From Peribacillus simplex (GTDB lineage Bacteria > Bacillota > Bacilli > Bacillales > DSM-1321): a stretch of DNA of 64,000 bases. The notes under the pieces are model-generated. The model was not told the DNA's origin and did not search any database. It saw only the letters and a program-made list of their open reading frames with translations. How positions within the stretch are numbered: position 1 is the first letter of the stretch; every line of letters starts with the position of its first letter. Below are positions 2,916 to 40,499 of the stretch, in pieces. Location of the stretch: contig NZ_LNNH01000002.1 in NCBI RefSeq assembly GCF_001542915.1, positions 1 to 64,000 of the forward strand, given 5' to 3'. A program made the position numbers and the translations under genes.

Positions 2916-3371
2916 ATGAAGATAAAGGTAGAGATAGATGAGGAGGTCAAGGCGATAGAAGTGCTTATCCGCAACAATGCTTGGAATGAGGAATTGGAGC
3001 AATTGATGGAGCGCTTAAAAGAAAGGAAAAGGCCGTATTTTGTTGGGAGGAAGGAAGACATGCAGCATGTATTCCGGACGGAGGAAATCATCTGCTTGTT
3101 CACGGAACAGGATTCGATTATGGTACGGACAAAACAAGGGACTTTCGAAATGAGAGAGAGATTATACGAGCTTGAAAGGGAACTTCCAAGTAACCAGTTT
3201 GTGAGGTTGTCCAAGTCAGTGATTGCCAACTTAGATGAGTTAAGCAGATTCGAGGCGTCCTTCAATGGAACATTATGTGTATATTTTCGGTCAGGGGAGA
3301 AGGAATATGTTTCACGGCACTACGTTCAAGGAATCAAGAAAGCATTTCAATGGAAAAGGAAGGGATTATGA
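2916..3371 (+). CDS. LytTR-domain DNA-binding regulator
   Basis: A 151-aa protein with a LytTR DNA-binding domain over roughly residues 45-150 (EEIICLFTEQDSIMVRT, then FVRLSKSVIANLDEL, then EYVSRHYVQGIKKAF). It lacks a receiver domain; the first 45 residues are a short charged helix. AAAGGGAGG precedes the ATG by about 8 nt. Its stop codon overlaps the start of a DUF3021-type membrane protein, so the two are translationally coupled. LytTR regulators coupled to small membrane inhibitors are known as LytTR regulatory systems (for example HdrRM and BrsRM of streptococci), and that is the likely arrangement here. Target genes are unknown. Confidence 0.85.
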   Translation: MKIKVEIDEEVKAIEVLIRNNAWNEELEQLMERLKERKRPYFVGRKEDMQHVFRTEEIICLFTEQDSIMVRTKQGTFEMRERLYELERELPSNQFVRLSKSVIANLDELSRFEASFNGTLCVYFRSGEKEYVSRHYVQGIKKAFQWKRKGL

Positions 3372-3787
3372 TGAAAACACTATTGATCCGGAGCTTTGTT
3401 GGGATTTGCTTTGGAGCGCTTGTGATGGTGCTGATATGTTTTGGCGTCATCGGCTTTGGAGGGGTCGATGCTTTGGACAGTGACCTCTTTGTGAAAAATG
3501 CGATAGGCTGTCTATTATGTGGCTGGTTTTTCAGCACGGCAACCATCATTTTCGAGGTCGAAAAATGGAGCTTATTATTTCAGACCATCCTGCACTTCTT
3601 CACTGTCACCGTACTTTATTTCCTGCTCTCCTTTTTTGTCGGATGGATTCCCTTCTCTTTTAAAGGATTAATGACTGGAATAGCGATTTTCCTGCCTTTC
3701 TATGGGATCATCTGGATTATTTTTTATCTTTATTTCCGCCATCAAGTGAAAATGCTGAATGATGGATTGGATGAGAGAGGGAAATGA
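3368..3787 (+). CDS. DUF3021 membrane protein, probable LytTR inhibitor
   Basis: A 139-aa protein with four hydrophobic segments (residues about 8-30, 45-62, 72-95 and 105-125) and a short charged C-terminus, matching the DUF3021 pattern. ATGATGA overlaps the stop of the upstream LytTR gene, and AAAAGGAAGGG inside that gene serves as ribosome binding site; the start is 3368 or 3371. By analogy with HdrM and BrsM it would hold its LytTR partner inactive at the membrane until a signal arrives. The signal and regulon cannot be deduced. A long hairpin follows the gene. Confidence 0.8.
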   Translation: MMKTLLIRSFVGICFGALVMVLICFGVIGFGGVDALDSDLFVKNAIGCLLCGWFFSTATIIFEVEKWSLLFQTILHFFTVTVLYFLLSFFVGWIPFSFKGLMTGIAIFLPFYGIIWIIFYLYFRHQVKMLNDGLDERGK

Positions 3788-3808
3788 AGGAGAGACCAAA
3801 ATTTAGAT

Positions 3809-3849
3809 AAACCAAGGTGAGCCACTTTTTCAGCGGCTCACCTTGGTTT
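3809..3849. terminator. Terminator-like hairpin after LytTR/DUF3021 pair
   Basis: Perfect 15-bp arms at 3809-3823 and 3835-3849 around an 11-nt loop. There is a TTT at the 3' arm but no longer T-run. Confidence 0.65.
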
Positions 3850-3914
3850 GAAATGTTTCACGGTACCTTTTCGTTCCATAGTCGGTGATAAATCGTAATA
3901 TTCTAAATATTTAA

Positions 3915-36225: not shown

Positions 36226-36465
36226 TTAATACCCTCCTTATGAAATTTCAAATTTCATGATTTGGACAATATCAACGATGACAAACATCTCTTGCTTATG
36301 CCGGAATAAATGTATTTCATTGATCCTTACTCCCATATTTTATCAAATGTGCGGAAATCAGAGTGAATTATTTGAATATTAAGCCCTTTTCGGATAATCT
36401 TACACAATGAAAGGTACTTGCATCAGCTATTATTAAAAACAAAGCGCTTAACAGGAGGAATTCAA

Positions 36466-37524
36466 ATGAATCAATTACTGACCAAAATTTTTGAGCCTGT
36501 AACGATTGGTGCTTGGAATTTAAGAACAAGAACAGCGATGGCTCCCATGACACGGTCGTTTGCCGAAAACGAAACGGGTGTTGTGAATGACCTAATCGTA
36601 GAATATTACAGAAAGCGCGCCCAAGATGGCATTGGGCTCATCATTACAGAAGGTGTAGTGATATCACCAAGGGCAAAGGGAAATCCTGGTGTTCCTGGGC
36701 TGTATACGCAAGAGCAAATCGATGGATGGAAAAAGGTGACGGAAGCTGTGCACGCTGAAGGCGGAACGATCATTGCGCAAATTTGGCATGTCGGCCGTGC
36801 AAGCCACCATGAAATTGCTGGAGGGCTTCCTCCGCAGGCCCCATCGCCCATCGCTGCCGAAGGAAAAGTTTCACGATTCGGAAAGCCATTCGATGTACCT
36901 GAGGAAATGACTGAAAATGATATTGCACAAGTAGTGAACCAATACAAACAAGCGGCAAGAAATGCAATCGAAGCTGGCTTTGACGGCGTTGAGATCCATG
37001 GTGCGCATGGCTATTTAATCGACCAGTTTAATTCCGACACGTCCAATAAAAGAACCGACCGGTATGGCGGTGATTTAAAAGAGCGCCTGACTTTCATGAA
37101 GGAAGTGCTGAATGCAATCATCGATGAAGTAGGAGCGGACCGGACCCTTATCCGTTTTTCCGCTTTTAAAATAGATCAGCCAACATATATGTGGGAAGAT
37201 CCAGAGGAAGCAATAAAAATATTTATTGAAGCATTTAAAGAAACGGGAGTCAAAATGATTCATCCGTCCACGATGGAATTCACCAAACCGATTGCCAAAG
37301 GAGCGACTTTGCATGAATTGGTGCGCAGACACTGGGATGGAGTGATAGTGGGTGTCGGTGGATTTGATCCTAAAACAGCGGAAGCCGCTTTGGAAAGAGG
37401 AATCATCGATGTTGCGGCAATAGGCCGTCCGCTCATCGCCAACCCTGATTACCTGAAAAAAATCAAGCAGGATGAAGAACTTGTTGAGTACGAAGCAAAG
37501 CAACATTTAGCTCAATTGGTCTAA
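36466..37524 (+). CDS. Old yellow enzyme family NADH:flavin oxidoreductase
   Basis: A 352-aa FMN enzyme of the OYE family. FEPVTIGAWNLRTRTAMAPMTRS begins the barrel, TEGVVISPRAKGNPGVPGLYT and AQIWHVGRASHHE line the FMN pocket, and IEIHGAHGYLIDQF with RTDRYGG near residue 180 carries the His/Asn-type substrate ligand pair and catalytic tyrosine. It reduces activated double bonds, such as those in enones or nitro esters, and often protects against electrophiles. ACAGGAGG is six bases before the ATG; the frame extends to 36418 without a site. Monocistronic with a terminator downstream. Confidence 0.92.
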   Translation: MNQLLTKIFEPVTIGAWNLRTRTAMAPMTRSFAENETGVVNDLIVEYYRKRAQDGIGLIITEGVVISPRAKGNPGVPGLYTQEQIDGWKKVTEAVHAEGGTIIAQIWHVGRASHHEIAGGLPPQAPSPIAAEGKVSRFGKPFDVPEEMTENDIAQVVNQYKQAARNAIEAGFDGVEIHGAHGYLIDQFNSDTSNKRTDRYGGDLKERLTFMKEVLNAIIDEVGADRTLIRFSAFKIDQPTYMWEDPEEAIKIFIEAFKETGVKMIHPSTMEFTKPIAKGATLHELVRRHWDGVIVGVGGFDPKTAEAALERGIIDVAAIGRPLIANPDYLKKIKQDEELVEYEAKQHLAQLV

Positions 37525-38225: not shown

Positions 38226-38531
38226 TTGGTTACATGCTATCTGAAATACGTGATCGACCCATACAAAGCAACTGAGTTCGAAGAGTACGGGAAGATGTGG
38301 ATCCGCTTGGTGAATAAACTAGGCGGTTCACATCAAGGTTATTTCCTTCCGCATGAGGGTGCCAATAATATTGCCTATGCATTATTCACTTTCCCGAGTC
38401 TAGCGGCCTATGAAGAGTACCGGGTAAAAATGGGCTTGGATGAAGAATGTCAAGCGGCATATAAATACGCAGAGGAAACGAAGTGCATCATTAGCTATGA
38501 GAGAAGCTTCATGCGCCCTGTATTCGAATGA
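38226..38531 (+). CDS. NIPSNAP-family protein
   Basis: A 101-aa dimeric alpha-beta barrel protein; CYLKYVIDPYKATEFEEYGKMW and FTFPSLAAYEEYRVKMGLDEE mark the NIPSNAP family. The function of bacterial members is not settled. It starts with TTG at 38226, eight bases after AAAGGAGG; the ATG at 38219 is in another frame. A short gap from the P-loop gene suggests one transcript, and a terminator follows. Confidence 0.8.
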   Translation: MVTCYLKYVIDPYKATEFEEYGKMWIRLVNKLGGSHQGYFLPHEGANNIAYALFTFPSLAAYEEYRVKMGLDEECQAAYKYAEETKCIISYERSFMRPVFE

Positions 38532-38682: not shown

Positions 38683-38720
38683 TTGATTCCATCAAATTTT
38701 TCCACTACAATTTGTAGTGG
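38683..38720 (+). promoter_or_regulatory. Promoter with BlaI-type operator, copy 1
   Basis: TTGATT (38683) and TACAAT (38706) are 17 bp apart. The -10 box lies inside a perfect 19-bp palindrome at 38702-38720 with half-sites CACTAC/GTAGTG five bases apart. The palindrome's 3' end touches the ribosome binding site of the repressor gene, so binding would block transcription. Confidence 0.8.
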
Positions 38721-38730
38721 AGGTTGAAAG

Positions 38731-39147
38731 ATGGATATAAAAAATTTTAAATATGATGAAGTTGGCCTGAATCGTTTTTTCGGACCATTGGAAGCGAGTA
38801 TAATGGAATGTTTATGGCAGAAGAATGAGCTTAGTATTAAAGCGGTCCAGCAGTGCTTGGAGAAAGACAAGCCCCTCAATTTCAATACTGTGATGACAGT
38901 CATGAACCGGCTGGTTGAAAAAGGCGTTCTTGAAAAGAGGTCTGAAGGAAGGCTTTCATTATTTCATCCTGTGCAGTCGAAGGAAGAGTTTTTAGAAGAG
39001 CAGTCAAAGAAGCTGACCGAAAATTTACTTGATGAATTTGGAGGGGCGGTCATAAGCCATATGCTTGATGCCATGGAAGACGCCGATCCAAGTCTAATTG
39101 AAAAATTGGAACGGAAGATTCAATCTTTAAAAAAGGGTAAATTATGA
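38731..39147 (+). CDS. BlaI/MecI-family transcriptional repressor
   Basis: A 138-aa winged-helix repressor. GLNRFFGPLEASIMECLWQKNELSIKAVQQCL and NFNTVMTVMNRLVEKGVLEKR give the BlaI DNA-binding domain, and a helical dimerisation tail follows. Proteins of this family are inactivated by site-specific proteolysis triggered by an M56 sensor. GGAGG stands eight bases before the ATG. Its stop overlaps the start of an M56 peptidase gene (ATGA), and the operator in its own promoter recurs before the downstream DoxX gene. It therefore likely represses itself, the peptidase and doxX. Confidence 0.9.
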   Translation: MDIKNFKYDEVGLNRFFGPLEASIMECLWQKNELSIKAVQQCLEKDKPLNFNTVMTVMNRLVEKGVLEKRSEGRLSLFHPVQSKEEFLEEQSKKLTENLLDEFGGAVISHMLDAMEDADPSLIEKLERKIQSLKKGKL

Positions 39148-39998
39148 TGTGGAAGAAAAAGTCTTACTTCGTCGTAAGCCTGAGCCTTTTAATCGCCTGT
39201 GCAGTTTGGAGCCAAATGGGCGCGTTTTTGGTGCATATCCTTTTTGGGGTGAATATTAAAGCAAACTTCTTTAAATTTTGCTTTAGTCTATTCAAGGAAG
39301 GGACAGTATACTATTTTGCTGTCATCACCTTGCTCAATATTGTAATTGTCCACAGTGTTTTGAACACGATATTCAAAATTGCAGAGCAGTTTCTCCTATC
39401 GAGGAAGCTTATACAAAAGCTATCCGTCGCCAAAAACGATGAAAAGACAACGTTGATGAATGAGAAATTCAAACACGTCAACAACAAAATCCTAGTGGTG
39501 AACACTGATGAACCTCTTGCCTTTACGGTTGGATTCAGGCACCCGTTCATTGTTTTCAGTACCGGTTTATTGGAATTATTGGACGTTGACGAGCTAGAAG
39601 CGGTGGTGGAACACGAATCCTTTCACCAAAAATATTATCACCCATTAGTAATCTTTATCCTGCAGTTGATTTCTCAAGCATTATGGTTCGTCCCACTGAC
39701 AAAATGGTGTTATAAGAATTACAAAATAATGAGTGAATTATTAGCTGATGAACATGCGATAAATAAAATGGGGACAGAATTAAGCATAAGTGCAGCATTG
39801 TTGAAGTTAATCAAATATTGCTGCGCTGATAATACCGCTCCTGTCCGTGTTCACTTTTCCAATGAAGCAGTCAATTATCGGCTCATGCAACTAGTCGATC
39901 CGCATGAAACCATTCCATTGAGGGCTGATTTCACCACGATTATTGTATCTATATATGCATTGCTTATACTGTTGGGTATGACGATAGTGATTGTCTGA
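39144..39998 (+). CDS. M56-family membrane metallopeptidase, short BlaR1-like
   Basis: A 284-aa membrane protein with helices near residues 8-30, 45-70, 170-195 and 262-283. The zinc motif HESFH (HExxH) lies in EAVVEHESFHQKYYHP, and ELLADEHAIN supplies the third ligand. It matches the BlaR1 N-terminal peptidase part but ends right after the fourth helix, with no penicillin-binding sensor domain. It would cleave or signal to the BlaI-like repressor encoded just upstream, with which it overlaps by four bases. What activates it is unknown. Confidence 0.88.
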   Translation: MMWKKKSYFVVSLSLLIACAVWSQMGAFLVHILFGVNIKANFFKFCFSLFKEGTVYYFAVITLLNIVIVHSVLNTIFKIAEQFLLSRKLIQKLSVAKNDEKTTLMNEKFKHVNNKILVVNTDEPLAFTVGFRHPFIVFSTGLLELLDVDELEAVVEHESFHQKYYHPLVIFILQLISQALWFVPLTKWCYKNYKIMSELLADEHAINKMGTELSISAALLKLIKYCCADNTAPVRVHFSNEAVNYRLMQLVDPHETIPLRADFTTIIVSIYALLILLGMTIVIV

Positions 39999-40008
39999 TG
40001 ACTTTCAC

Positions 40009-40048
40009 TTGATTTTTTTGGATTATTACACTACAAAGCGTAGTGTAA
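40009..40048 (+). promoter_or_regulatory. Promoter with BlaI-type operator, copy 2 (doxX)
   Basis: TTGATT (40009) and TACAAA (40032) are 17 bp apart, as before the repressor gene. The -10 box lies in a 23-bp imperfect palindrome at 40026-40048 whose CACTAC/GTAGTG half-sites have the same 5-bp spacing as copy 1. Confidence 0.78.
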
Positions 40049-40070
40049 AATGAGATAAAGGAGCTGTCAC

Positions 40071-40499
40071 ATGAATAAACAAGAAATTGGTACTTTTTTA
40101 TTAAGAATAATGCTGGGTGCTACTTTTTTTATGCATGGTCTGTCAAAATTCCAAGGTGGATTGGATAACATCTCAGGATGGTTCCAAAGTATCGGCATTC
40201 CGGGATTTATGGCTTATGTAGTTGCTACAATTGAATTGGCTGGGGGGTTAGCTTTAATTGCAGGGCTTGGCACAAGAGTAATCTCTGTTCTCCTTGTTTT
40301 CATCATGGCGGGTGCAATTATTTATGTGAAACTTCCGGCAGGTTTCATGGGGAATGAGGAAGGGACAGGATTCGAAATGGACCTTGTCCTCATGGTGATT
40401 GCCCTTCACTTGGTCTTGAATGGAAGCCGATTGATGTCATTGGATTCTAAATTACCTACCAATAAAAAAGGACAAGATTCTAAATCCATTGCTAGTTAA
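40071..40499 (+). CDS. DoxX-family membrane protein
   Basis: A 142-aa protein with four membrane helices. LLRIMLGATFFMHGLSKFQGGLDN, FMAYVVATIELAGGLALIAGLGTR and FEMDLVLMVIALHLVLNGS are typical of the DoxX family, which includes subunits that bind thiosulfate or support redox stress complexes, but most members have no defined role. AAAGGAG stands eight bases before the ATG. It has its own promoter carrying the same operator as the upstream BlaI-like gene, so it is the apparent target of that system. Confidence 0.9.
   Translation: MNKQEIGTFLLRIMLGATFFMHGLSKFQGGLDNISGWFQSIGIPGFMAYVVATIELAGGLALIAGLGTRVISVLLVFIMAGAIIYVKLPAGFMGNEEGTGFEMDLVLMVIALHLVLNGSRLMSLDSKLPTNKKGQDSKSIAS

Follow-up and report, generated by a model that had tools for sequence, protein, structure and literature searches.

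The window analysed here is a stretch of 64,000 nucleotides from Peribacillus simplex (RefSeq assembly GCF_001542915.1, contig NZ_LNNH01000002.1, positions 1 to 64,000 of the forward strand), and our subject is a three-gene locus within it that encodes a BlaI-family repressor, a short M56 membrane zinc protease, and a DoxX-family membrane protein. All three genes lie on the plus strand: blaI at 38731-39147 (138 amino acids; Pfam PF03965 Penicillinase_R, 4e-26, 92 bits against a curated cut-off of 22.6), the M56 gene at 39144-39998 (284 amino acids; PF05569 Peptidase_M56, 2e-12, 47.6 bits against 31), and doxX at 40071-40499 (142 amino acids; PF07681, 2e-22, 80.3 bits against 23.6). The reading frames of blaI and M56 overlap by four bases, ATGA, and the BlaI profile matches the structures of MecI and BlaI. 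A preliminary description of this DNA had placed these genes together, and their order and families are borne out by the open reading frames (ORFs) and the Pfam matches. It had also held that the M56 protein lacks the penicillin-binding sensor and that no beta-lactamase gene is near, and both statements agree with our scans: no PF00905 (Transpeptidase, penicillin-binding) domain was found by Pfam in the 284-residue protein, no beta-lactamase was present among the eight proteins scanned around the module, and neither Beta-lactamase2 (PF13354) nor Transpeptidase (PF00905) was matched on contig C2, that of the window, the search there being confined to these two families. The Pfam scan of 54 of the 56 window ORFs, in which 25 of 95 families were seen, was not used as a basis for this absence.

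The regulatory sequences of the locus are two similar promoters, each with a palindrome over its −10 box. The blaI promoter (38683-38711, plus strand), read from the sequence and present in the promoter listing, consists of the −35 box TTGATT (38683-38688), a 17-bp spacer, and the −10 box TACAAT (38706-38711); over this −10 box lies the exact and conserved palindrome CCACTACAA-T-TTGTAGTGG (38702-38720, no strand assigned), a putatively autoregulatory operator. The doxX promoter (40009-40037, plus strand), read from the sequence, has TTGATT at 40009-40014, again a 17-bp spacer, and TACAAA at 40032-40037, with the putative doxX operator TTACACTAC-AAAGC-GTAGTGTAA (40026-40048, no strand assigned), likewise an exact and conserved palindrome, over its −10 box. 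The promoter listing demands a T at position 6 of the −10 box, and hence the doxX promoter is not listed; promoter-like sites of this same listing are not commoner in the region than in shuffled sequence. Exact CACTACN5GTAGTG occurs in the window at these two −10 boxes and nowhere else, and with three mismatches allowed there are nine matches, which is no more than chance. The shorter pattern ACTACN5GTAGT has only these two copies in the whole 5.11-Mb genome, compared with 30 for the reversed control, and it occurred three times in a 20-Mb Markov simulation with the dinucleotides of the window. The two promoters with their shared TTGATT, 17-bp spacer, and TACAA-type −10 box inside such palindromes thus stand as they had been described beforehand.

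Both palindromes are strongly conserved within the genus. In a survey of 36 genomes, an M56 match at E 1e-3 was obtained in 25, and 23 of these, including the genome of the window, contain full-length orthologues. Both palindromes are exact in 22 of the 23 loci; in the remaining one (L008) the upstream palindrome is one base off, and the second, downstream palindrome is exact in all 23. The pair is followed by doxX in 20 of the 23 loci, always with the operator preceding it; the remaining three (L024-L026) have bdbD-bdbC behind the second palindrome in place of doxX. Genome-wide, exactly two CACTACN5GTAGTG sites are found in 21 of the 23 module genomes, with three in G010 and one in G030; the third site of G010 lies inside a 467-residue ORF (L249) and was taken as chance. 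The 13 genus genomes without full-length M56 have three such sites in total, and the reversed control occurs once in each of 10 of the 36 genomes. Since 21 genomes have exactly two sites, the regulon in the genus most likely comprises two promoters, as far as operator counts can tell. The one bdbD that the genome of the window carries elsewhere, on contig C27, has no exact operator. One genome with the full module carries, on another contig, a fragment of 42 residues that shares 81% identity with the N-terminus of M56 (L030, G023:C1:833069-833194).

It may be asked whether doxX is a mere bystander, with both palindromes acting on blaI alone in a chance neighborhood, and the support for doxX regulation is indeed drawn from sequence alone. 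Against this stand the exactness of the second palindrome in 23 of 23 genus loci and in 103 of 122 loci overall, and the fact that it stays when the gene behind it changes. We rejected the bystander reading on operator conservation and on the target neighborhood seen in 117 of 122 loci (see below), and consider it the least probable of all the alternatives. It is very likely that doxX is a direct target of BlaI.

The module extends far beyond the genus. An order-wide search found M56 at E 1e-25 in 40 of 397 genomes, and 34 of the 35 order loci outside the genus have at least one of DoxX, BdbD, and BdbC within 1.6 kb downstream. Named genomes were scanned with the BlaI alignment as well, which gave 399 confirmed relatives. 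The best 80 of these were kept, chosen by BlaI similarity and not by their neighbors; they include Peribacillus, Paenibacillus, Neobacillus, Metabacillus, Cohnella, Psychrobacillus, Priestia, and Parageobacillus, and 75 of these best 80 of 399 have DoxX, BdbD, BdbC, or DUF3105 (PF11303) downstream. Among the five named loci without this downstream set, L121 has a divergent doxX; in L127 and L131, from two Paenibacillus species, two exact operators are followed by yceI and then by blaI and the M56 gene, as a YceI-BlaI-M56 operon (3223-3909); and L165 and L172 stop at contig ends. The 80 named loci overlap the other genomes surveyed. All 142 annotated stretches were pooled and reduced to 122 with distinct BlaI and M56. 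In 117 of these 122 loci, DoxX, BdbD/BdbC, or DUF3105 lies within 1.6 kb downstream, as called with profiles that were built from first-round matches in these same loci. An exact operator is present downstream of M56 in 103 of the 122 loci, upstream of blaI in 62, and at both positions in 54. The trio of BlaI, short M56, and DoxX therefore recurs in other genomes, where it forms part of a larger module.

In the relatives, the operator precedes bdbDC, DUF3105, yceI, or ccdA-resA, and it stays in place where the gene behind it changes. For a tree of 90 representatives, M56 proteins more than 93% alike and those below 800 bases were removed, and L127 and L131 were scored manually as YceI. This tree requires no fewer than 16 changes of target type, and the switch thus appears to have repeatedly exchanged its targets within a narrow set. 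The assumption that doxX is the target holds insofar as the operator precedes it in 20 of 20 genus loci with doxX, but doxX is not the sole target type: going by gene order and operators, it is one member of a small interchangeable set that is dominated by extracytoplasmic thiol-redox genes. The BdbD and BdbC neighbors match Pfam Thioredoxin_4 and DsbB, and all 61 BdbD rows show a C[PVEI]xC motif. Any cysteine at all is found in 23 of 94 DoxX rows, and the DoxX of the window has none, which argues that DoxX is not itself a dithiol enzyme. DUF3105 is the apparent target in L115-L117, L119, L120, L122, L123, L126, L128, L133-L135, L137, L138, L150, and L155, which are mostly from Paenibacillus and Cohnella; the protein is membrane-anchored and has many invariant His, Asp, and Glu residues.

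The half-sites of the operator are kept while its center varies, with 23 distinct centers in 65 upstream sites and 52 in 114 downstream sites, which fits the expectation for a dimer site. In the genus, the −35 and −10 boxes of blaI are nearly unchanged across 18 loci, and the TTGATT of doxX is identical in 19 of 19 aligned doxX loci (L005-L023). Over all sites compared, at least four of six matches to TTGACA at 16-18 bp were found for 55 of 65 blaI sites vs. 7 of 65 at a control offset, and for 36 of 114 target sites vs. 16 of 114. The preliminary idea of a shared −35/−10 geometry therefore applies to close relatives and commonly to blaI promoters, but one geometry for all was not upheld for the target promoters at large.

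The protein families are those of BlaR1/BlaI, and one could suppose that the module still serves antibiotic defense, as a response to beta-lactams or cell-wall damage whose sensor domain has been lost. The same genome, however, has a separate canonical pair on contig C3 (L250, 4823-7019), consisting of a BlaI and a 602-residue BlaR1 paralogue that does have a Transpeptidase domain. Three TACA-N2-TGTA boxes lie upstream of this pair, and two further Transpeptidase proteins, of the penicillin-binding protein type, are encoded nearby. Because the operators differ (TACA-N2-TGTA vs. ACTAC-N5-GTAGT), the two BlaI systems appear to be insulated from each other by operator sequence. Given this separate pair and the missing PF13354 and PF00905 matches on the contig of the window, and with targets that are mostly redox proteins, a beta-lactam response was rejected and is highly improbable. 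Of the earlier suggestion of a redox or membrane stress circuit rather than a beta-lactam response, the redox part and the exclusion of beta-lactams are favored by the target set, and membrane stress has gained no separate support.

The M56 protein has the features expected of a BlaR1-type protease. Its HExxH zinc motif, HESFH (39612-39626, plus strand; H157, E158, and H161), is followed further on by E198 with A201-D202, and H157, E158, H161, and E198 are invariant columns of the aligned module M56 proteins. The sequence profile matches BlaR1 at E 2e-9. An AlphaFold2 model from 50 sequences (predicted local distance difference test score, pLDDT, 82) has a helix at 2-34, a short helix at 42-49, a long helix at 55-96, and then the protease core, and it matches Staphylococcus aureus BlaR1 in Foldseek (E 1.9e-4, probability 1.00). 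Superposition on BlaR1 8exs with VIA-align aligned 200 residues, model 1-244 on BlaR1 31-289, with a root-mean-square deviation of 3.5 and a Z of 12.5, bearing in mind that a Z below about 13 can reflect the common arrangement of helical proteins. According to this model, the short M56 seems to lack the first helix of BlaR1 as well as the sensor, and its loop 35-54 seems to correspond to extracellular loop 1 (EL1) of BlaR1. In BlaR1, EL1 (56-96) faces the outside and is tied to signaling, as the available part of the structural paper describes (PMC9834060). The split M56 at L175 (1770-2620, Parageobacillus caldoxylosilyticus) is a separate observation: it is divided into two frames and HExxH was not found in the aligned piece, and the locus retains BlaI, doxX, bdbDC, and an operator.

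The EL1-equivalent loop between helices 2-34 and 55-96 contains a cysteine, C46 (codon 39279-39281, plus strand), which alignment and model single out as the candidate sensor. C46 aligns at about residue 87 of BlaR1, inside EL1, where S. aureus BlaR1 has an isoleucine (I87). All 50 diverse module M56 proteins compared contain this cysteine, which is the sole one in five of them, and no other column of their alignment holds more than 10 cysteines. The aligned cysteine is further present in 120 of 121 module M56 proteins besides that of the window and in 38 of 40 short M56 proteins sampled from the phylum, with the restriction that distant rows align only loosely in this loop. It is found in none of the six long BlaR1-like proteins of the genus, which are closely related and thus represent few independent cases.

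The phylum sample serves as an outgroup. The M56-family profile matches both short and long proteins, in 131 of 299 phylum genomes altogether, and 40 stretches were taken around the better-scoring short M56 places, with open frames up to 376 residues. None of DoxX, BdbD, BdbC, or DUF3105 was found in 38 of these 40; the other two, L229 and L230, are module members with DoxX. Without them, the aligned cysteine is present in 36 of 38 outgroup proteins, the exceptions being L211 and the truncated L246. A 22-row alignment, in which L093 lacks both such genes and the cysteine, had suggested that C46 tracks the DoxX/Bdb neighborhood, but this was weakened by the outgroup count and by L211; to judge from these alignments, C46 is a mark of short M56 proteins as a class and not of a target type. 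In the four best-scoring outgroup loci (L209-L212), DsbD_TM (CcdA) genes adjoin the BlaI-M56 pair, in L209 and L211 together with a thioredoxin-type protein, and all four have exact operators, which in L212 lie just inside the called ccdA ORF, at its very beginning. Exact operators occur in 13 of the 40 phylum stretches, and ACTAC-N5-GTAGT in 11 of the 38 outgroup stretches. The commonest of 59 downstream outgroup proteins (out of 63, with four from L210, L212, L213, and L242 dropped as likely spurious) are FtrD-like (15) and MacB/FtsX (15) proteins, and not every short M56 therefore serves classical thiol genes. L216-L248, from Bacillota, are short M56-BlaI pairs that adjoin FtrD-like and MacB/FtsX-type ABC genes, some with ACTACN5GTAGT.

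A class-wide search with a different M56 query gave 17 additional stretches, of which two were duplicates and 15 were new in sequence. DoxX is found in 11 of the 15, BdbD-BdbC in one, and DsbD-type plus ResA-type proteins (CcdA-ResA) in two, namely L262, with an exact operator in front, and L268; in L255, a lipoprotein gene is interrupted and matches a redoxin weakly, below the cut-off. At least one exact operator is present in 14 of the 15 loci and a cysteine in the N-terminal loop of M56 in all 15, with eight loci from one genus code that are not independent. In L262, an Lgt-like gene (below the Pfam cut-off) comes after ccdA-resA.

We interpret the module as a protease-repressor switch of the BlaR1/BlaI type that has probably been turned to extracytoplasmic thiol-disulfide (redox) homeostasis. 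That M56 inactivates BlaI is quite likely on the grounds of family and fold, and envelope thiol redox is, with equal likelihood, the physiological theme suggested by the targets. In the mechanism that we propose, BlaI dimers would sit on both palindromes in the resting state and keep RNA polymerase from the −10 boxes. An oxidizing environment outside the membrane, or a disturbance of disulfide exchange, would alter C46 in the short extracytoplasmic M56 loop, either through a C46-C46′ disulfide in the dimer or through a mixed disulfide with a DsbA-like protein. This change would be passed on through the membrane-spanning helices to the zinc site in the cytosol, where BlaI would be cut near S109-H110. 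This position (codons 39055-39060) corresponds, within about one residue, to the BlaR1 scissile position in an alignment with MecI, and next to it H110-M111 is invariant in the A1 alignment of BlaI; BlaR1 cuts BlaI at N101-F102 (PMC9834060, available part). Cleavage would derepress doxX (or bdbDC and similar genes) together with blaI-M56 until the redox balance is restored, with DoxX perhaps acting as a membrane partner, as in the Mycobacterium tuberculosis complex with SseA and SodA that the accessible passages of PMC6930017 and PMC7907618 describe. An oxidizing rather than a reducing stress is the inducer that we favor, by a modest degree. The role of C46 as the sensing residue, and with it the presumed reactivity of this cysteine, is tentative.

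Several observations weigh against this interpretation, apart from the range of the Z value and the few independent BlaR1-like proteins already mentioned. C46 is not specific to DoxX/Bdb loci, as it is shared by most outgroup proteins; because it also occurs often next to FtrD-like or MacB/FtsX genes, it could have a structural role or respond to a different signal, and L211, which has thioredoxin, CcdA, and operators but no cysteine, speaks against a strict link. The BlaI-M56 pair of L093 has neither C46 nor any of DoxX, BdbD/BdbC, or DUF3105. An exact operator is missing downstream in 19 and upstream in 60 of the 122 loci, and the −35/−10 geometry is not general among target promoters. The DoxX of the window lacks cysteine, and the link of DoxX to thiols rests on the M. 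tuberculosis DoxX, which is a different protein. As to DUF3105, no paper naming the family was found in the open-access literature, and its model (pLDDT 76) gave no significant fold match; the best PDB match is thioredoxin-related (E 0.13, not significant), with several thioredoxin-fold rows below it. As a side observation, a His- and Met-rich lipoprotein-like gene comes after BlaI-M56 in L093.

The strongest competing reading takes the state of the quinones or of the respiratory chain as the signal. DoxX, the quinone-reoxidized BdbC, and YceI would then be joined by quinones, and the helices of M56 rather than C46 would sense the respiratory state. DsbB is linked to quinones and YceI to isoprenoids, and the YceI-BlaI-M56 operons of L127 and L131, each behind two operators, fit such a regulator. 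So do the listing of DoxX, M56, and BlaI genes in the table of a Streptomyces quinone antibiotic cluster (PMC10697411, table), the DoxX protein SaeQ, which resembles MhqP and CatD and is part of a system that is reported to respond to respiratory status (PMC7189620, available passages), and the action of the mycobacterial BlaI on an ATP-synthase-linked gene (PMC12565901, available passages). A quinone signal leaves unexplained, however, why BdbD occurs without BdbC, why CcdA-ResA or thioredoxin are targets, and why the extracytoplasmic cysteine is so strongly conserved, and we regard it as unlikely.

The module could alternatively be a switch that responds to copper stress, in which copper would oxidize envelope thiols. 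A CxC metal-binding motif is typical of the copper repressor CopY. The repressor family is named BlaI/MecI/CopY (table wording in PMC10697411), with CopY as a copper repressor (PMC7253601), and CsoR- and CopA-like genes, named by eye, adjoin the module at L066, with matches also beside the outgroup loci L213 and L215. Only 3 of the 142 module stretches have CopA matches and one has a CsoR match, however, and CxC is present in just 2 of 142 BlaI rows and absent from the BlaI of the window. Copper was rejected as a general signal on the CopA count, and a copper switch is very unlikely. The order of genes at L066 beyond bdbD is a prolipoprotein diacylglyceryl transferase family gene and then the CsoR- and CopA-like genes.

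Compared with BlaR1-BlaI (and MecR1-MecI) of staphylococci and Bacillus, the module shares the adjoining M56 zinc protease and BlaI, with profile and fold matches, the palindrome over its own promoter (putatively autoregulatory here), and the HExxH and E/D motifs. It differs in the missing penicillin-binding sensor and in the first BlaR1 helix (1-30), which lies outside the fold match, in the EL1-loop cysteine that is lacking in the six long BlaR1-like proteins, in its operator, and in its redox targets. The module may work like BlaR1-BlaI, but it is not a beta-lactam receptor system, as the scans for a sensor domain and for linked resistance genes of the families named above found neither. 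Mycobacterial BlaI (Rv1846c) has Rv1845c as its short M56 partner. Like the module, this BlaI has a target other than beta-lactam genes, and unlike the module, no DoxX or Bdb link was found there, the available passages of PMC12565901 mentioning neither DoxX nor M56 nor Rv1845c. BlaI_0696 and BlaI_1845 of Clostridium thermocellum, studied by DNA affinity purification sequencing (DAP-seq), also have small regulons that include themselves, and BlaI_0696 likewise has inverted half-sites five nucleotides apart, but with GTCTAT as the half-site, two copies of the motif in each target promoter, and other targets; the two were interpreted as beta-lactam systems (PMC8457756, available passages). DoxX itself has been placed in envelope oxidative or thiol stress by the M. 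tuberculosis DoxX-SseA-SodA complex and by the hypochlorous acid-induced DoxX operon of Haemophilus influenzae, which differ from the module in that their DoxX proteins are distant and the H. influenzae operon is under an extracytoplasmic function sigma factor, and the available passages make no mention of BlaI-M56 (PMC6930017, PMC7907618). BdbD-BdbC (DsbA-DsbB) of Bacillus are neighbors and apparent targets of the switch in relatives. In the open-access literature, we found no BlaI-M56 control of bdbDC and no description of such control of doxX or DUF3105. Nor did we find there a described system with the same trio, the one paper in which DoxX, M56, and BlaI occur together giving them as separate entries of the naphthocyclinone gene table (PMC10697411, table). 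Both protein families are known, and the BlaI-M56-DoxX/Bdb/DUF3105 module is apparently undescribed so far.

Two further genes lie just upstream of the module in the window: a NIPSNAP-family protein (38226-38531), whose gene is found in the upstream stretch at 3 of the 23 genus loci, and an Old-Yellow-Enzyme-type flavin oxidoreductase (36418-37524).

M56-BlaI pairs are usually read as regulators of beta-lactam resistance, and here we find a widespread lineage without the drug sensor, which in the genus has a putative two-promoter regulon and whose targets mostly handle disulfide chemistry outside the membrane. To our knowledge, the control of envelope disulfide formation in Bacillota is little understood, and the module would join DoxX, DUF3105, and DsbA/DsbB into one physiological unit. 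It also suggests what the sensor-less M56 proteins might sense and names one residue, C46, for this. In a broader and more speculative reading, which we hold with less confidence than the role of C46 itself, sensor-less M56 proteins across Bacillota would be a large, so far undescribed class of extracytoplasmic thiol-redox receptors in which the cysteine of a shortened EL1, instead of the penicillin-binding domain of BlaR1, triggers BlaI cleavage in the cytosol. BlaR1 would be a specialized branch of this class in which a domain for drug binding was acquired and the cysteine disappeared, and ACTAC-N5-GTAGT would mark redox regulons of DoxX, DsbA/DsbB, CcdA/ResA, DUF3105, and YceI. If this reading is true, it would provide the first functional assignment for DUF3105.

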